Position numbers and translations under genes: made by a program. The notes beneath the pieces were generated by a model. The model worked only from the letters and a program-made list of their open reading frames with translations, was not told where the DNA came from and made no database searches. DNA of 64,000 bases, taken from positions 1 through 64,000 of the forward strand of contig LADZ01000018.1 in NCBI GenBank assembly GCA_000961845.1, written 5' to 3'. How positions within the stretch are numbered: the first letter of the stretch is position 1; each line of letters begins with the position of its first letter. The DNA comes from Flavobacteriales bacterium BRH_c54 (lineage in GTDB: Bacteria > Bacteroidota > Bacteroidia > Flavobacteriales_E > Vicingaceae). Shown piece after piece: positions 30,344-40,075 of the stretch.

Positions 30344-31189
30344 TTAGAAATGCCATACATCATGTTCCATATTAAATATCTCTTCTTTTACTTGTTCAGC
30401 TTCTAACAATCTATCAATTCCCATTTTGTAGTCAATTAACATTCTGTCATATACGTTAGATCTTTTAATAATATAACTGTTGAACATTCTTTTCCAAAAA
30501 ATATCTTCAAAAGTTCTACGTTCTGCATCATTCTGTCTATTAAACACATCATAATTAGCAAAAACATAACGAGCTTCAGGAAAATATATCCAAAAAAGAC
30601 TTTTTAATCCTTTAAACTGACCATTTTCATCTAACACACTCACCAATGGTGCTATTCCCATAATTCTAACATCCATTATTGAACGTTCTCTGTCAAAAAA
30701 CCAATCTTCCTTCATATGATATTTCACAACATCCACACTAGCAATTTCTTGATAAGTGTTAGTTTCAACTAATTCAAAAGTTTCAGGGTCTTCAACAAGA
30801 ACTGAAATGGTATCACCCATTTTTACCATAGCTTCAGAAGGAGTTAATTTAATTTTAAACTCATCATCACTTGGATCGTAAGCTGACAATTCACCTGCAA
30901 GAACAGCATCTTTAATTACATCAAAAAGCGATTTTCTATCATCAATTTTTGTAGTAGGATAGTACAGAGGATGATTAATTTTTTCTCTTAAATCAATTTC
31001 TCTCCATATTCTTCTATGCCACATTACATCTTGTTCTCTTACGTGGGTATAAGGAATAACACGTCTGGTAGGTGTATTTTCTTTAACCCAAGGTTTATCT
31101 AATACTTTTAAATCTTGTGCAGACAAACTAAATCCAGAAGTCAATAATACTCCTACCAACAATAATGTACCAATTTTGATTAATTTCAT
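30344..31189 (-). CDS. gldN: Type IX secretion / gliding protein GldN
   Basis: GldN (PorN) is a periplasmic protein that, with GldK, forms the large ring under the outer membrane in the type IX secretion machine. The 281-residue product has a signal peptide ending SLSAQ and the family pattern RRVIPYTHVREQDVMWHRRIWREIDLREK (positions about 42-70). It is the last gene of the porP-gldKLMN run. An unusually good Shine-Dalgarno sequence (31196-31202) precedes the ATG. The perfect hairpin at 30285-30320 ends the unit. Confidence 0.95.
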   Translation of the reverse strand: MKLIKIGTLLLVGVLLTSGFSLSAQDLKVLDKPWVKENTPTRRVIPYTHVREQDVMWHRRIWREIDLREKINHPLYYPTTKIDDRKSLFDVIKDAVLAGELSAYDPSDDEFKIKLTPSEAMVKMGDTISVLVEDPETFELVETNTYQEIASVDVVKYHMKEDWFFDRERSIMDVRIMGIAPLVSVLDENGQFKGLKSLFWIYFPEARYVFANYDVFNRQNDAERRTFEDIFWKRMFNSYIIKRSNVYDRMLIDYKMGIDRLLEAEQVKEEIFNMEHDVWHF

Positions 31190-31237: not shown

Positions 31238-32905
31238 TTATATTACAGTTATAATAATTGGAGCTAAATTTCTCGTAGTGCCATCAGGCATTTTACATTT
31301 AATATCTTCAATATAAAATTTCTGATTTCTGGTAGCACCACTTATCATATTTTTACAAGTTCCGTTTAATCTAAATCCGTTTACTTTTTCTTCTGTAATC
31401 ATTCCTGATTTTACAGTTGAAAATTTAAAAGAAGATACATTAACATTAACTTCAAAATCAAAATTATCCATTTGTGCTTGAACAGTACTTGCTGCATTTA
31501 AAGCTGCTTTTTTAATAGCAAATGAACCAGCTTTCCCTACAATTGATGAAACTGGATCAGGAATTCTTTTTACTCTAAACTCAGAACTTCCAAGTTTGAC
31601 TTTCTTTCCACTTTCATCTTCTCCCGTAACTGTAATAGTAACTGTTTTTGCAGTTTTTGGAGGTCGCATCACATAACCTTTAGATGTTTTACTCAATCCC
31701 GGACCTGAAGCTGTAAAATTAGGCATTGGAGCTGATACAGAAACCGGGTTGTCCACACCAATATAAAATACATTCATCTTTTCAGCAGCTACTGTTGTAG
31801 AAGGTCTTCCTACTTCAAAAGTATGATCAAAAGGATAAATTTTTGGTCCTTTTTTAGTTTTAACCTTAATTATTCCTTCCCACTCATGCACCCCAATTCC
31901 TTCTTTTATTTTTAAATAACCTTTACCAGCTTCTACTTCTTTAAGTTCAAACCACCCTCCTTTTTTAAAATCTTCCCAAGTTTCACCTTTAGTTCCTTGC
32001 ATAATTTTAGTTTCGTCTGTTTCTCCTTTTGCAACTAACGCACTATCATATTTTCCAATGTAAATTTCTGGGTTTTCAATATCATTGTACGCAGCTGTAA
32101 ATATTTCTGCCGCAAATGAATCTCCATCCAACACATAAGCTTTTTTAGCAAAAGCAAAACCATCTACTTTACTAAATGATACAGAACCTGCATCAATGTT
32201 TTCATAAAGTTTAGCCACCGCTTCAGCTTCAGCACTTCTAACATCCGATTGTAATTTTGATAAAATAGTAATTACAGCTGCTAGAGGTACATGATAAAAA
32301 TTAGCAGATTCCCAGTTTTTATCATCTCCCGATCCTTTTGGTGGATCAGGTGTTTCTAAAACATCAAGTGTTTGTTTCATCAAATCTTGAGCTTCTTTAT
32401 TTTCACTAAATAACGCTAATATATCATCTCTATATTTATTGATTTTATTTTTTAAATCAACAGCAGACCATTCTCCATCTTTAGGTTTTGCAGGATCAGC
32501 TAACCCCATAACTAAAGTTGGAATATCATAATTGTCTTTACTTTGAACTTTACTGATATGAAACAAACTATCAGGTGCACCATCAGGTAAACCATCAGTT
32601 TTTTTGATTAATTGTCTTTTCAATTCAGCAATATGATTATATAAATCATCTGACATTTTTTTTACATTATTTGCTTTAGCTTGATAAGGTTTTGCTGCAT
32701 CACTATCAGCAGCAGCACTAGCAAATGCCGTATAATAAATCCCTGTTTTATCCGCAAATGATTCGGTTGAATTCTCAATACCTCCATTCACTACAATAAA
32801 AGCATCTAAAATATCTTTAGAAACGTTCATCGCTAACAAAGCAGTTAATACTAGGTACATCATACCAATCATCTTCTGCCTTGGTGGTAAATCTCCTCCA
32901 CTCAT
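31238..32905 (-). CDS. gldM: Type IX secretion / gliding motor protein GldM
   Basis: GldM (PorM) spans the inner membrane once and reaches through the periplasm; with GldL it forms the proton-driven motor of type IX secretion and gliding. The 555-residue sequence begins MSGGDLPPRQKMIGMMYLVLT, with the single membrane helix at about residues 13-30, followed by periplasmic domains. It lies 42 bases after gldL and 48 bases before gldN. No Shine-Dalgarno is visible. Confidence 0.95.
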   Translation of the reverse strand: MSGGDLPPRQKMIGMMYLVLTALLAMNVSKDILDAFIVVNGGIENSTESFADKTGIYYTAFASAAADSDAAKPYQAKANNVKKMSDDLYNHIAELKRQLIKKTDGLPDGAPDSLFHISKVQSKDNYDIPTLVMGLADPAKPKDGEWSAVDLKNKINKYRDDILALFSENKEAQDLMKQTLDVLETPDPPKGSGDDKNWESANFYHVPLAAVITILSKLQSDVRSAEAEAVAKLYENIDAGSVSFSKVDGFAFAKKAYVLDGDSFAAEIFTAAYNDIENPEIYIGKYDSALVAKGETDETKIMQGTKGETWEDFKKGGWFELKEVEAGKGYLKIKEGIGVHEWEGIIKVKTKKGPKIYPFDHTFEVGRPSTTVAAEKMNVFYIGVDNPVSVSAPMPNFTASGPGLSKTSKGYVMRPPKTAKTVTITVTGEDESGKKVKLGSSEFRVKRIPDPVSSIVGKAGSFAIKKAALNAASTVQAQMDNFDFEVNVNVSSFKFSTVKSGMITEEKVNGFRLNGTCKNMISGATRNQKFYIEDIKCKMPDGTTRNLAPIIITVI

Positions 32906-32947: not shown

Positions 32948-33742
32948 TTACGATTTCATTGCAGTAAGCATGTTACCATAGATGTTATTAAGAGCTGACA
33001 AGTTAGTAGATAACTCAGCAATATTGTCTTTATAACGTTTAGTATCTTCTACAGAATCAGACAAGTTAGTCATTAATGCAGTAATACCGGCATACATAGC
33101 TTGCATTGTCTCTGCTTGCTGCTGAGAGCCTTGTAATTGAGACTCATAAGAAGAGTTTAATGCTTCTAAAGTAGATGCCATTTTCTTTAGGTTATCACCT
33201 GTAGAAGCACCAGATTCAGCAGCACTTGAAAGCCCAGTTAAAGCTTGAGAAGCTTCTTCATAAGTTCCTGCTAAAGCAGTTACTTTAACTGATGCGTTTT
33301 TTAAACTGTCAGCATACTCATTTGTAGCAACAGATGCATCAGAAATTTCTGATAATTTATTAGCATTTGTGCTTAAGCTTCTTAATCCTTGTCCTAAACT
33401 TTCAATTAATTCAGGTCCAATTTTAGCTTCTTCCAACATGTTGTCTAATTGTTCAACAGCACTACCTTTTTTTCCATGACCATGACCATCTTCATCATCC
33501 ATTCCGGCTAATTCCGGATAAGCTAATGTCCAATCTAATGGCAAATGCTGTGGTTCAAATGCCGACACAAGGAAGATTAATGCTTCAGTACTTAATCCAA
33601 TAACAAGCATTGGACCTGCACCAGGCCAGTGCATAATTTTAAATAGTGCTCCAACAATTACAACTGCTGCACCTGCACCATAGAGAATCCCCATGATGGT
33701 TTTACCTTTTTTGGTTTCAAATAAAAATTCAATAAATCCCAT
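32948..33742 (-). CDS. gldL: Type IX secretion / gliding motor protein GldL
   Basis: GldL (PorL) is the inner-membrane partner of GldM and carries the glutamate needed for proton flow. The 264-residue protein has two membrane helices: MGILYGAGAAVVIVGALF (about residues 17-34) and PMLVIGLSTEALIFLVSAF (about 44-62, containing the likely functional Glu in TEALIF). A long helical cytoplasmic tail rich in Ser, Ala and Gln follows. It sits between gldK and gldM in the conserved order. Confidence 0.94.
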   Translation of the reverse strand: MGFIEFLFETKKGKTIMGILYGAGAAVVIVGALFKIMHWPGAGPMLVIGLSTEALIFLVSAFEPQHLPLDWTLAYPELAGMDDEDGHGHGKKGSAVEQLDNMLEEAKIGPELIESLGQGLRSLSTNANKLSEISDASVATNEYADSLKNASVKVTALAGTYEEASQALTGLSSAAESGASTGDNLKKMASTLEALNSSYESQLQGSQQQAETMQAMYAGITALMTNLSDSVEDTKRYKDNIAELSTNLSALNNIYGNMLTAMKS

Positions 33743-33799: not shown

Positions 33800-35128
33800 T
33801 TACAAATTGTCATCTTTTGCTCTTCCTAAATAAGTCATTACACATCTAAATCCGATATAAGATTTAGCTGTATCTTGATACTCATAAGTTCTTGTTCCTG
33901 TTTGAAGGTAGTAACCTATGTCTTTCCAAGAACCACCTCTGATTACTTTTCTTTTCAACACTTCAGGCTCATCATCTTTAGCATCATACATGTAATCTGG
34001 ATTAAGGTCATGTGCAAAATTGTAAGCAGACTCATCAAAAGCATTGCTTGTCCATTCTGCTACATTACCAGCCATGCAATACAGACCATAATCATTTGGA
34101 TTATAAGAATTAATTTTTACAGTATGAAAACCCCCATCATCAATATAATTACCTCTCATTGGTTTAAAATTACCTAAGAAACATCCTCTAGCATTTCTAA
34201 TATAAGGACCTCCCCAAGGATATGGACTTAAATCTAATCCTCCACGGGCAGCATATTCCCATTCAGATTCTGTTGGTAAACGGAAATCATTTGTAACTGT
34301 TCCTCCTATATCTGCTAAATAAGCATGTAATAAACGAGTTCTCCAAATACTAAATGCAGTAGCTTGTTTCCAAGAAACACCAACAACCGGATAATCATCA
34401 TAAGCTGGATGCCAAAAATAGTTTTGAGTCATCGGTTCATTAAATGAATAGGTGAAATCATGAATCCATGCTAAAGTGTCAGGATAAACATTTATCACAT
34501 CTCTCATGATAAACTGAGATCTATCCATAGAAAATGCATGTTTAGCTCCTTCTGGACCATTTAAAGCATCTCTACTTGATCTTTTAGCAGCTCTTCTATA
34601 ATCTATCCAATAATAAGTATAATTAAATTTTCTAGTATCAAACTGTCTTCTTCCCATGTATCTTTCCCCCATGTTATAATACATAGGCTCTAATGCTTCC
34701 CTAATTTCAGGTTGTTTAGGGTCACCATATTTTAACTTAGCGTACCAGTTAATAATAGGCACATCATACTCTTCTTCCCACTCATTCATAAGTAATAGAT
34801 AATATTCTTCATCTATTTCTTCTCCTAATATTTTTCGAGCGATAGAATCTCTAACATGATACACGAACTGACGATATTCATTATTAGATATCTCAGTTTG
34901 ATCAATGTAAAAAGCTTGTACAGAAACTGTTTTTGATTGTGCAGTTAAAGCATAAGGAACATCCTGATCTGATGGTCCCATATTATAACTTCCCATAGGG
35001 ATAAAAAGCATTCCAAAAGGATCTGGTTGATACCATTCTTGCCTTCCTTGAACGCCAATTAACTCTCCATTACCTTTATTACATGAATAAAGTATGACTA
35101 ATGCTAATATTATTAGTATTTTTTTCAT
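33800..35128 (-). CDS. gldK: Type IX secretion lipoprotein GldK
   Basis: GldK (PorK) is the outer-membrane-anchored lipoprotein of the GldK/GldN ring. The 442-residue protein has a lipobox (ALVILYSC, Cys about residue 16) and an FGE-sulfatase-like fold with IPMGSYNMG, LPTESEWEYAARGG and GNVAEWTSN, ending GFRCVM. The fold is used structurally in this family. It follows the porP-like gene by 136 bases, which contain a small inverted repeat (35155-35173), and it has a strong Shine-Dalgarno sequence. Confidence 0.95.
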   Translation of the reverse strand: MKKILIILALVILYSCNKGNGELIGVQGRQEWYQPDPFGMLFIPMGSYNMGPSDQDVPYALTAQSKTVSVQAFYIDQTEISNNEYRQFVYHVRDSIARKILGEEIDEEYYLLLMNEWEEEYDVPIINWYAKLKYGDPKQPEIREALEPMYYNMGERYMGRRQFDTRKFNYTYYWIDYRRAAKRSSRDALNGPEGAKHAFSMDRSQFIMRDVINVYPDTLAWIHDFTYSFNEPMTQNYFWHPAYDDYPVVGVSWKQATAFSIWRTRLLHAYLADIGGTVTNDFRLPTESEWEYAARGGLDLSPYPWGGPYIRNARGCFLGNFKPMRGNYIDDGGFHTVKINSYNPNDYGLYCMAGNVAEWTSNAFDESAYNFAHDLNPDYMYDAKDDEPEVLKRKVIRGGSWKDIGYYLQTGTRTYEYQDTAKSYIGFRCVMTYLGRAKDDNL

Positions 35129-35264: not shown

Positions 35265-36233
35265 TTATAAAAATCTTACAGACCTATAAACTTCTCTTTT
35301 TGGTTGTTTATAAATACTTGTACAATATCTCAACATAATTTCAAAACTTCCACTACTGTGATCAGCTAATGCAGATGTTGTTAAATCATAAGCAACACCA
35401 ACTTTTAATCCTGATATACTAGGCTCATTTATTGCTTCTCCTATATCAACACCTAATAACAATCCAATTGCGTCTTCAACTCTATAAGTAACGCCTCCCC
35501 ATAACATCTTATTGTATTCCATTAAAACGTTTACATCTAATTGTGTAGAAGCAGCATCTGTTTTAGCAAGTATAGATGGCTTTAACACCCATTTTTTATC
35601 GTTATTAATATCCCAATCATAACCAGCCATTATATAATAATGTCTTGATTGTTGAAAATTTAATGCTCCAACTCCACCTTGATCGGCCACATCTTCTACT
35701 GAAGTTTGTGGAATGTGTAAGGTAGAAATACCTACATACATCTTATTAGCGATAGAATAATAAAGACCTGCACCAAAATCAAAAGTGGCTGCTGAAGTGC
35801 CTGAATTAGGAATTGATGGGTCTAATGAAGGATCGTCAATAGCTATAAAATTATCTTTAAAAGACTTGCTCAACATACCTGCTTCAATACCTATACCTAA
35901 TTCTCCAGGACCTAAAGTTAAATGATAAGCATAAGCTAATTTAGCTACTAAAGATTTTTCTATACCTAATTGATCTTGAAAAACAGTAAGCCCAACACCA
36001 TGTTTGCTAATACGAGCATCTGCACTTAACATATGTGTTTGAGGGTTCCCTTCAAAACCTGTCCATTGCTGACGAGTAAACAATGTTCCACATATACCAC
36101 CATTATGACCAGCAGAACCAGGGTTTACACTTAATTTATTAAACATATTTTGTGTAAACTGAGCGTCTTGCTGAGCCATCAGAGAGAAAGTTCCTAGGAA
36201 CAAAAAAGACACAGAAAGTAATATTTTTTTCAT
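35265..36233 (-). CDS. porP: PorP/SprF family outer-membrane protein
   Basis: A 322-residue outer-membrane beta-barrel protein of the PorP/SprF family, which helps type IX secretion and, in PorP's case, surface attachment of cargo. A signal peptide (MKKILLSVSFLFLGTFSLMAQ) precedes the family start QDAQFTQNMFNKLSVNPG and the GLTVFQDQLG patch. An in-frame ATG 15 codons upstream (36278) is unlikely because it precedes a normal signal peptide start and overlaps the promoter start region. Its place directly before gldK matches the porPKLMN order of Porphyromonas rather than the sprB-sprF pair of Flavobacterium. Confidence 0.88.
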   Translation of the reverse strand: MKKILLSVSFLFLGTFSLMAQQDAQFTQNMFNKLSVNPGSAGHNGGICGTLFTRQQWTGFEGNPQTHMLSADARISKHGVGLTVFQDQLGIEKSLVAKLAYAYHLTLGPGELGIGIEAGMLSKSFKDNFIAIDDPSLDPSIPNSGTSAATFDFGAGLYYSIANKMYVGISTLHIPQTSVEDVADQGGVGALNFQQSRHYYIMAGYDWDINNDKKWVLKPSILAKTDAASTQLDVNVLMEYNKMLWGGVTYRVEDAIGLLLGVDIGEAINEPSISGLKVGVAYDLTTSALADHSSGSFEIMLRYCTSIYKQPKREVYRSVRFL

Positions 36234-36286: not shown

Positions 36287-36317
36287 CTAAGATAAATAAA
36301 AAAAAATAACATGCAAA
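36287..36317 (-). promoter_or_regulatory. Probable promoter of the porP-gldKLMN unit
   Basis: On the minus strand TTTG (36317-36314), a 19-base spacer and TATCTTAG (36294-36287) match the Bacteroidota promoter with one mismatch in the -7 box. The leader would be about 45 bases. Confidence 0.5.
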
Positions 36318-36391: not shown

Positions 36392-37558
36392 TTAAATTAA
36401 TTTTTGAAAAGTTCTAATCCAAATATCAGGTAACTCATTATTACATGCAACTTGATAGTCTTTATAAGTGCAGGGAATTAATAAATGTCTTTCATTTTTA
36501 ATTTTTTCATGGGAAGGATATGGAACATCTATCCACCAACGATCACTTTTGTCACTTTTATAAAAAATTAAGTCGTTTCCGCCTTCTAACATCGAAACTA
36601 CATATTTAGTATAATCTTTTCGACTACCAATAGGAAAATCATTTTTTCTGTTGTTTACGCCATCTATAAAATACCAAATCATTTGTGCAACACTATGAGC
36701 TGTTTGATTATTAAAATCCACAGTAGGATTAAATTCATAAAACCCAATAGATGTGAGTTTATCGCTAATACCGGCATATCTTGCAATTTGGCAGGCTTGC
36801 TCTCCATAAAATCCATTAGGAGATGCATTTTTATTTCCCGGAGCTTCTGCCTGTCTTATTGAGGACACATCAAAACTAACAATATCTGCATTTCTAACTA
36901 TAGGCTCCACCTCTTCCATATTGTTTTGAATTTCTCCTAAACGATAAGCATCAAAATAAAGTTTAGAAATTAAATCAATTTCTTCGGTAGATACAAAGTA
37001 ACTTTGATAACCAATATTGCTAAAGTTAAATAAGTAATTAGGTTGGTGAAGAATAATTTTTGCCAAATAGTTGTCAGCATTAATAGCATAGTTAGCATCA
37101 TCTAAATTTAACTTAGCATCTACAGCAACTAAGTTAACGGACTGTTCTAAATTTTTATATGCTAAAAAATTAGCATAGGTTAAATCCTGACTGCCTCCTA
37201 TAATAATAGGTAAGATATTTTTTTTGATTAACTCTTCCAGAATATTACTTAGTGCAAAATAAGTATCTTCAACTGTAGCTCCATTTTTTAGATTCCCGAA
37301 ATCTGCTATTTTTTTCTTTCCATTAAATGAAAGTCGGTATAAAAATTTTCTTACAAAGTCAGGAGCTTTACCACATCCTTCATTATTGGATGCATTTCTT
37401 TCTTCTTCAATTCCAATAATTGCTATAGCAACATCAGATAACTCTTGGTTCTCTTCACTATAATAAAGTAAGTTATTGGCAAAATGATTACTTTTATAAT
37501 CGAAGTTAAAAACTTCTTTAGATAAATCTATTGGTTGAAAATAATCAAAAAAATCCAT
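36392..37558 (-). CDS. Arginase/formimidoylglutamase-fold protein with degenerate metal site
   Basis: A 388-residue ureohydrolase-superfamily protein of the kind annotated formimidoylglutamase in Bacteroidota. The three metal-binding blocks are recognisable but altered. Arginase GGDHS is GGSQD here, DAHxDxN is DAKLNL, and SxDxDxxDP is SFDVSSIRQ. Only two of the six canonical ligands (the first Asp of each of the last two blocks) remain, so hydrolase activity is unlikely. An extra N-terminal segment (about 45 residues) and an aromatic C-terminal region (RWWIDVPYPS) are present. It lies between topA (39 bases) and porP, and I infer a structural or regulatory role. Fold assignment is good; function unknown. 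Confidence 0.8.
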   Translation of the reverse strand: MDFFDYFQPIDLSKEVFNFDYKSNHFANNLLYYSEENQELSDVAIAIIGIEEERNASNNEGCGKAPDFVRKFLYRLSFNGKKKIADFGNLKNGATVEDTYFALSNILEELIKKNILPIIIGGSQDLTYANFLAYKNLEQSVNLVAVDAKLNLDDANYAINADNYLAKIILHQPNYLFNFSNIGYQSYFVSTEEIDLISKLYFDAYRLGEIQNNMEEVEPIVRNADIVSFDVSSIRQAEAPGNKNASPNGFYGEQACQIARYAGISDKLTSIGFYEFNPTVDFNNQTAHSVAQMIWYFIDGVNNRKNDFPIGSRKDYTKYVVSMLEGGNDLIFYKSDKSDRWWIDVPYPSHEKIKNERHLLIPCTYKDYQVACNNELPDIWIRTFQKLI

Positions 37559-37597: not shown

Positions 37598-40075
37598 CTA
37601 TTTTTTCTTTTTGGTTTTTTTTGCCGGTTTTTGTTTTTCAATTATTTTTTCAACATCTTCCAAAGTCATTTTTTCTACATCCGTATCTTTTGGCAATTCA
37701 ATTTTTGTTTTTCCTTTCACAATATTAAATCTTCCCCAACGGGCTTTCTGAACTGAAATACCTTTATCTTCCCAATTATGAATAAATTTATCTTTTTCTT
37801 TTTGTAGCTTATCCTCAATTAATTCTTTAATGTCACTTTGAGACAAGTTATCAAAATTATATTTCTTATTTACATTGATAAACATGTTGTTCCATTTAAT
37901 AAAGGGTCCAAATCTTCCTACTCCTTTTTGAACTGGTTTCCCCTGATATTCTGCAATAGGAGCATCTGCCTGTTGTTTTTCCTTAATTAATTCAATAGCT
38001 CTATTAAGATTAACAGCAGTAATTTCTTCACCTTTGGGTAATGAAATGAACTTTTCATCAAATTTAATATATGGTCCAAACTTGCCTTGAGACACCACTA
38101 CTTCTTTACCTTCATGATTTCCTAAGGTTTTTGGAAACTGAAATAATGTCAATGCCTGTTCTAAGGTTATATTAGAAATATTTTGTTCTGGAAGCAAACT
38201 TGCAAACTGAGGTTTTTCTTCATCCTCTGTACTTCCTATCTGAATCATTGGTCCGAATCTCCCAATACGAGCAATAACTGGTTTTTTTGTTTTTGGATCT
38301 GTACCTAACAATCTTTCACCACTAGCTCTTTCGGCATTTTCAAGCGTATCAGTAATTTGATTGTGAAAAGGCTTGTAAAATTCAGCAATCATCTTGCTCC
38401 ATTCTTTTAATCCTTCAGCAATTTCATCAAACTGTTCTTCAACCCTTGCTGTAAAATTATAGTCTAAAACTTTTCCGAAATTTTCAACCAAGAAATCTGT
38501 AACAACAATACCTATATCTGTTGGAAACATTTTTTTCTTCTCAAAACCAAAATTTTCTTTGAGTTGTTTTTCAGAAATTTTCCCTGATTTAAGTGTTAAC
38601 AATACATAGTTTCGCTGACTACCATCTCTATCTTCTCTAACAATATATCCTCTTTTTTGGATAGTTGAAATAGTTGGAGCATAAGTAGAAGGTCGTCCGA
38701 TACCTAATTCTTCTAACTTTTTAACCAAACTAGCCTCGGTGTATCTTGGTGGATGATTGTTATATTTTTCTGTAGCGGTAAGTTCGTTTAGGTTTAACTC
38801 TTCTCCTTTCTTTACTTGTGGTAAAATGCCTTCTTTTTCATCTTCCTGATGGTCATCATCACTAGATTCTAAATAAACTTTTAAGAAACCTTCGAACAGT
38901 AATACTTCGCCTTTAGCTACAAATTTTTCTTTTGAGGTATTTATACCTATAGTAATAGTAGTTTTTTCAAGTTTGGCATCGCTCATTTGAGAGGCAATGG
39001 TTCTTTTCCAAATTAAATCATACAACCTTGCTTGAGCAGCATCACCGGAAATCGAATGTTTATTCATATAAGTTGGTCGGATAGCCTCGTGAGCTTCTTG
39101 AGCACCTTTAGATTTGGTACTAAATTTTCTTACTTGAGAAAACTCCTCGCCATAACTAACTGTGATTTCTTTCTTTGCAGCTCCAATTGCTTCATTTGAT
39201 AAATTTACCGAATCCGTTCTCATATACGTTATGTTTCCAGATTCGTATAATTTTTGAGCTACCGACATGGTTTGAGCTACTGAAAAACCTAATTTCCTAC
39301 TTGCTTCTTGTTGTAATGTTGAAGTTGTAAAAGGTGCTGCCGGAGATCTTTTTGAAGGTTTCGTTTCTAAATCTTCAACTGTAAAAACGGCATTATTACA
39401 AATTTCTAAAAACTTCTCTGCTTCTTTTTGTGTTTTAAATCTGTGCGGAAGTTCAGCTTTTATTGTTGCTTTATCATTGGTTTCAAATAAAGCGATTACT
39501 CTAAAAGCAGATTCATAGGTAAAGTTATCTATTTCTCTTTCTCTTTCAACAATTAACCTTACCGCTACAGATTGTACTCTACCAGCAGATAATGATGGTC
39601 TAACTTTTTTCCACAATACAGGTGACAACTCATAACCCACTAATCTATCCAAGACTCTTCTTGCTTGTTGAGCATCAACTAAGTGTGTATTAATTTTTCT
39701 AGGATTTTCTATGGCTTTAGTAATTGCCGATTTAGTAATCTCATGAAAAACAATACGTTTAGTCTTTTTTTCATCTAAGCCTAAGGCTTCTAATAAATGC
39801 CAAGAAATGGCTTCTCCCTCACGATCCTCATCGGAAGCTAGCCATACAACATCTGCCTCCTTTGCTAATTTTTTTAATTCTGCAACTATTTTCTTCTTAT
39901 CGCTAGGAACAACATAGTTTGGTTCAAAGTTGTTTTCTATATCAATGGATATGTTTTTTCCCGGTAAATCTCTAATGTGTCCAAAACTAGATTTTACAGT
40001 AAAATCTTTCCCCAAAAATTTTTCAATAGTTTTTGCTTTGGCAGGTGACTCAACGATAACTAAATTTTTTGTCAT
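37598..40075 (-). CDS. topA: DNA topoisomerase I
   Basis: TopA is the type IA topoisomerase that relaxes negative supercoils. The 825-residue protein has the TOPRIM start LVIVESPAKAKTIEKFLG, the acidic DEDREGEA motif and the catalytic tyrosine in ITYMRTDSVNL. Instead of zinc fingers, the C-terminus carries repeated topo_C-type modules (KFGPYIKFDEK, GRFGPFIKW, RWGRFNIVKG) and a Lys-rich tail, the usual arrangement in this phylum. A 27-base hairpin lies 13 bases upstream of the ATG. Confidence 0.96.
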   Translation of the reverse strand: MTKNLVIVESPAKAKTIEKFLGKDFTVKSSFGHIRDLPGKNISIDIENNFEPNYVVPSDKKKIVAELKKLAKEADVVWLASDEDREGEAISWHLLEALGLDEKKTKRIVFHEITKSAITKAIENPRKINTHLVDAQQARRVLDRLVGYELSPVLWKKVRPSLSAGRVQSVAVRLIVEREREIDNFTYESAFRVIALFETNDKATIKAELPHRFKTQKEAEKFLEICNNAVFTVEDLETKPSKRSPAAPFTTSTLQQEASRKLGFSVAQTMSVAQKLYESGNITYMRTDSVNLSNEAIGAAKKEITVSYGEEFSQVRKFSTKSKGAQEAHEAIRPTYMNKHSISGDAAQARLYDLIWKRTIASQMSDAKLEKTTITIGINTSKEKFVAKGEVLLFEGFLKVYLESSDDDHQEDEKEGILPQVKKGEELNLNELTATEKYNNHPPRYTEASLVKKLEELGIGRPSTYAPTISTIQKRGYIVREDRDGSQRNYVLLTLKSGKISEKQLKENFGFEKKKMFPTDIGIVVTDFLVENFGKVLDYNFTARVEEQFDEIAEGLKEWSKMIAEFYKPFHNQITDTLENAERASGERLLGTDPKTKKPVIARIGRFGPMIQIGSTEDEEKPQFASLLPEQNISNITLEQALTLFQFPKTLGNHEGKEVVVSQGKFGPYIKFDEKFISLPKGEEITAVNLNRAIELIKEKQQADAPIAEYQGKPVQKGVGRFGPFIKWNNMFINVNKKYNFDNLSQSDIKELIEDKLQKEKDKFIHNWEDKGISVQKARWGRFNIVKGKTKIELPKDTDVEKMTLEDVEKIIEKQKPAKKTKKKK

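Follow-up and report, generated by a model that had tools for sequence, protein, structure and literature searches.

What does an arginase-like protein do once it has lost most of the residues that bind its metals, and why should its gene stand between a topoisomerase gene and the core genes of the T9SS? The question is raised by an open reading frame in contig LADZ01000018.1 of Flavobacteriales bacterium BRH_c54, of which a stretch of 64,000 nucleotides (the window) was analysed. An earlier note had proposed that this gene, placed between topA and porP-gldKLMN, encodes a pseudoenzyme kept for a secretion-related or regulatory role. The gene, referred to here as a member of family X, starts with ATG, and the neighbours named in that note were confirmed, topA lying upstream and porP-gldK-L-M-N downstream:

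37598–40075, minus strand: topA, DNA topoisomerase I, immediately upstream of X with a gap of 39 nt
36392–37558, minus strand: family X protein of 388 aa with a degenerate arginase fold (from the open reading frame, Pfam, AlphaFold2 and Foldseek)
35265–36233, minus strand: porP/sprF family gene, downstream of X
33800–35128, minus strand: gldK/porK
32948–33742, minus strand: gldL/porL
31238–32905, minus strand: gldM/porM
30344–31189, minus strand: gldN/porN

The protein belongs to the arginase superfamily, matching Pfam PF00491 (Arginase) with E 6e-21 and 75.6 bits against a cut-off of 22. By sequence, the nearest proteins of solved structure are formimidoylglutamases, the best PDB relative being that of Bacillus subtilis (3m1r), which was also the top Foldseek match (E 4.6e-14, probability 1.00) of an AlphaFold2 model built with 37 family sequences (pLDDT 81.6, pTM 0.86), so that the predicted structure appears to be an arginase fold. 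Among curated models the best match is hutG (TIGR01227), and its 86.6 bits do not reach the equivalog cut-off of 229 bits. A histidine-degradation neighbourhood was not found either: no hut gene occurs among the identified neighbours of X, which are topA, porP and gldK or an NAD-dependent epimerase gene, the annotation of the neighbours being partial.

In arginase, metal site A is formed by H101, D124, D128 and D232, and site B by H126, D124, D232 and D234. The corresponding blocks of the window protein are the following:

37184–37198, minus strand: GGSQD block, residues 121–125, with Q124 aligned to ligand H101
37106–37120, minus strand: DAKLN block, residues 147–151, with D147 corresponding to D124 (kept), K149 in place of H126 and N151 in place of D128
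36851–36877, minus strand: SFDVSSIRQ block, residues 228–236, with D230 corresponding to D232 (kept) and S232 in place of D234

On alignment to ureohydrolases, the window protein retains two of the six canonical ligands (H, D, H, D, D, D), namely both bridging aspartates, and has Q for H101, K for H126, N for D128 and S for D234; the claim that four of the six ligands had been replaced was therefore exact. D125 of the GGSQD block is also present in the GGGHD block of HutG-type proteins. The Asn at the D128 position is shared with a few other lineages (17 of 220 aligned family members).

A profile of 25 family X members was searched against 345 genomes taken evenly from the class Bacteroidia. 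The family was present in 319 of them, and in 276 of the 294 near-complete genomes, and it is retained in genomes down to 1.7 Mb. Ligands were tabulated for 220 aligned members, and 68 diverse representatives were used for conservation. Three ligands are kept in 162 of the 220 members and four in 19, and no member has five or six, so that the loss seen in the window protein turned out to be family-wide across Bacteroidia; none of these proteins has the six ligands of an active ureohydrolase. The commonest pattern is Q-D-x-D-D-S. D124, D128 and D232, of the site A type, are mostly retained and Q is the most frequent residue at the H101 position, whereas the site-B-specific H126 and D234 are lost, being retained in seven and four members, respectively, and never together in the 68 representatives. 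Three members from family f4 (L176, L178 and L179) read N-S-I-S-N-D, the bridging aspartates being lost too and an Asp standing at D234.

Between the window protein and its nearest relative (L034, 95% identical), dN/dS is 0.044, which indicates strong purifying selection on a gene that is not decaying. A decaying pseudogene is ruled out by this value and by the fact that none of the listed members contains an in-frame stop. Because the ligand loss is family-wide and accompanied by such a low dN/dS, it exceeds what chance would produce. As far as sequences can tell, the view of family X as a pseudoenzyme without binuclear hydrolysis is well supported; this part of the earlier proposal stands, while its secretion part is not supported, as discussed below.

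The least variable positions among the 68 diverse members include E218, R222, G249, G263, W295, G300, F332, C363 and Y368, and D125, PNG 247–249 and C256 are strongly conserved in the family. Of 387 ranked positions, the former ligands occupy ranks 52 (D230), 56 (D147), 86 (N151), 187 (Q124), 198 (S232) and 316 (K149). Two regions should be mentioned separately:

36887–37048, minus strand: conserved segment, residues 171–224, in which Q185, R206, E218 and R222 are nearly or fully invariant
36395–36646, minus strand: C-terminal domain, residues 305–388, predicted to contain four strands and two helices

The conserved segment, part of which has low confidence in the AlphaFold2 model, is a candidate interface. 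The C-terminal domain is well conserved, with F332, C363 and Y368 invariant. The alignment with canonical PDB relatives does not extend into the last 85 residues of X, and no significant match to the domain was found in Pfam, PDB sequences or Foldseek.

In other classes of the phylum, HutG-like relatives usually retain all six ligands (GGGHD, NIDTHLD, SFDLD), and a HutI-type amidohydrolase gene adjoins one of them. Together with the other canonical paralogues, they form one separate clade with 100/100 support, which, combined with the family-wide ligand loss, is consistent with a single departure of X from an active HutG-type line; this departure would have preceded the radiation of the class. 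A formimidoylglutamase-like protein from outside the class (L225, 4052–5020) reads GGSND, with Asn at the H101 position and the other five ligands present, and possibly represents an intermediate state. Two proteins of about 310 aa from family f94 (L234 and L235, in G350 and G381) are extremely divergent, with a branch length of 4.8, and match chiefly the C-terminal half of the family X profile.

With slightly better than even confidence, we regard family X as a non-hydrolytic housekeeping protein of HutG-type descent, whose function is general and not specific to secretion. The sequences show that the family split from the HutG type of ureohydrolase, lost H126 and D234, and usually H101, carries an extra C-terminal domain and is held under strong purifying selection; presumably it has abandoned the two-metal hydrolysis of guanidino or formimino substrates. 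Since no signal peptide is evident in its sequence, X probably acts in the cytoplasm, where it may serve as a binding or scaffold protein, its degenerate pocket, segment 171–224 and C-terminal domain contacting a small ligand or a partner protein. Ureohydrolases are generally homo-oligomers, and for this reason X is most likely one as well.

It should be noted that the state of the pocket speaks against this explanation. The positions of D147, D151 and D230 are jointly kept in 45 of the 68 representatives, more often than a functionless pocket would seem to need, so that a single bound metal or another reaction is conceivable. X might thus be an enzyme with an altered single-metal or metal-free mechanism: in most members one ion would still be bound by the site A residues (Q/N/H, D, D, D), and a new reaction would take place in the pocket, N151 in the lineage of the window being further drift. 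The joint retention of D124, D128 and D232, the prevalence of Q at the H101 position and the strong conservation of D125, PNG 247–249 and C256 would all fit such an enzyme. However, the aspartates have also been lost in several lineages (N151 in the window, NSISND in f4), conservation is higher in the C-terminal domain than at the former ligands, and the aspartates that are kept may be structural. We consider this alternative unlikely, but far from negligible.

A different alternative, that X is a T9SS or gliding accessory protein, comes from the gene order. Of about 50 families sampled, 22 show the arrangement topA-X-porP-gldKLMN, or topA-X-gldKLMN in family f5. Many families carry X far from T9SS genes. 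Counted over loci whose flanks were long enough on either side, topA and porP/gldK both adjoin X in 67, topA alone in 29, porP/gldK alone in 2 and neither in 43; the topA-only cases are not independent, because 26 of the 29 are from closer relatives. Where both topA and T9SS neighbours are absent, a divergent NAD-dependent epimerase-type gene is frequent beside X (about 18 loci in unrelated families, including L144, L148, L158 and L184–L187).

Promoters of the sigma-A type in Bacteroidota have the consensus TAnnTTTG (PMC9723704). The gaps on both sides of X were scanned for TTG-N17-23-TAnnTT(T/A)G, elements being predicted by this consensus pattern only, and shuffled gaps served as control. 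The element was found in 54 of 75 gaps between X and porP/gldK (41 of 44 in the closer set and 13 of 31 in the diverse set), mostly about 54 nt ahead of the porP/gldK start codon, compared with 1 of 59 topA-X gaps and 2% of the shuffles. Its copy in the window is:

36287–36317, minus strand: promoter-like element TTTG-N19-TATCTTAG of the Bacteroidota sigma-A-type consensus, 53 nt before porP

The topA-X gap has a median of 16 nt in the diverse set and 51 nt in the closer set, and the X-porP/gldK gap has a median of 133–140 nt and is never shorter than 30 nt. Judging from the gaps and the predicted elements, X is probably on one transcript with topA where the two are linked, and transcription of the adjacent porP-gldKLMN operon seems to begin at a promoter of its own, although some read-through from X may occur. 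Such an arrangement would point to a general, rather than secretion-specific, function of X.

As for co-occurrence, family X was found in 274 of the 286 near-complete genomes with GldL and in 2 of the 8 without it, so that X and the T9SS are found together in 274 of the 294. The raw numbers make this a strong association, but few independent losses lie behind it. Within family f12, and in two reduced genomes, there are cases in which both the T9SS and X have been lost. Nor is the co-occurrence strict. G518 and G609 contain neither GldL nor GldM, yet have a full-length, intact X; SprA was not found in either genome, although the SprA model also missed two GldL-positive genomes. Conversely, family X was absent at E 1e-20 from twelve near-complete GldL-positive genomes belonging to f11, f12, f67, f94 (which holds the two divergent copies mentioned above), f98, f107 and f114; in each of these twelve, GldM was detected. 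In f12, no match to X was obtained in 81 sampled genomes, those of the GldL-positive genus g239 included. G623 is GldL-negative, but was not counted as T9SS-negative because it has SprA and its GldM lies at the edge of a contig; G348 (95% complete), without GldL, GldM and SprA, was left out of the argument.

In genus g2, no T9SS motor genes were detected in G518, which keeps X, and gldL of G627, another species (C22:42123–42809), has in-frame stops; this suggests decay of the T9SS in this genus while X is kept.

The gene order, the promoter-like element, the presence of X in the motor-less G518 and G609 and the twelve T9SS genomes without X all argue against the secretion role put forward in the earlier note. 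There may be a weak link of X to the T9SS, but we find it improbable that X is an accessory protein of that system. In the open-licence full-text literature that combines formimidoylglutamase or arginase with the T9SS, gldK, Flavobacterium or P. gingivalis, nothing was found on the X gene.

A role of X as a metal-free subunit that partners a canonical ureohydrolase within its cell seems more doubtful still. There is a precedent in MetCb, which has lost five of the six ligands and is required for the activity of MetCa in metformin hydrolase (PMC11271267), and canonical ureohydrolase paralogues are also encoded in most sampled genomes. However, no recurrent canonical paralogue occurs among the identified neighbours of X, as a MetCb-type pairing would imply. 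Moreover, no PF00491 protein other than X was found in the genomes G518 (L187) and G554 (L146), which rules out pairing as a general rule and, with it, as the general role of X. The source genome of the window itself encodes two canonical paralogues (L001 on contig C45 and L002 on contig C2) with the motifs GDHS/GGDHN and DAHxDL; one of the two paralogues lies beside an argS-like gene.

That X is a still-active binuclear formimidoylglutamase with replacement ligands is very improbable, for although hutG is its best curated match and Asn at the H101 position is tolerated in the B. subtilis and T. cruzi HutG (as judged from the alignment and from the title of entry 4myn), 86.6 bits is far under the cut-off of 229, the site-B-specific ligands are never both kept in the 68 representatives, and no residue consistently replaces them.

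Family X could be, and this broader picture is offered tentatively, an ancient former ureohydrolase on which nearly the whole class depends, with a new function, a degenerate and perhaps one-metal pocket and a novel C-terminal domain, acting in a general process and often expressed with topA. As X is kept in genomes down to 1.7 Mb, and also in genomes that lack the T9SS motor genes, it is a promising candidate for a core gene that has been overlooked. Because its best curated match is formimidoylglutamase, that name would mislead reconstructions of histidine degradation.

Among known systems, HutG (TIGR01227; 3m1r, 1xfk, 4mxr) is the closest match to X in both sequence and structure, with which it has a common fold, and in the first metal block X and the HutG-like relatives share the form GG-x-x-D. 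X differs from HutG in that the site B ligands, and usually H101, are gone, in its additional C-terminal domain (about 85 aa), in a score far under the curated HutG cut-off, and in having no hut cluster around it among the identified neighbours. The T9SS core porP-gldKLMN is on the same strand as X and adjacent to it in 22 of about 50 sampled families, but its genes are not homologous to X and have a separate promoter-like element, and each occurs without the other.

The arginase-like protein of Trypanosoma brucei belongs, unlike X, to the eukaryotic arginase branch, and is likened to X by description only. It was reported by Hai et al. (2015), as cited in PMC11271267. MetCb (8ryi, 8snf, 8x3g) and X are both arginase-family proteins that have been retained with changed ligands (three to five of six in the MetCb clade); however, the MetCb gene adjoins that of its catalytic partner, while family X occurs throughout the class, has no paired subunit and resembles HutG more closely in sequence, which makes an origin independent of MetCb probable. 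Few arginase-fold pseudoenzymes have been described, and while the T. brucei protein and MetCb are of limited distribution, family X is nearly universal in Bacteroidia.
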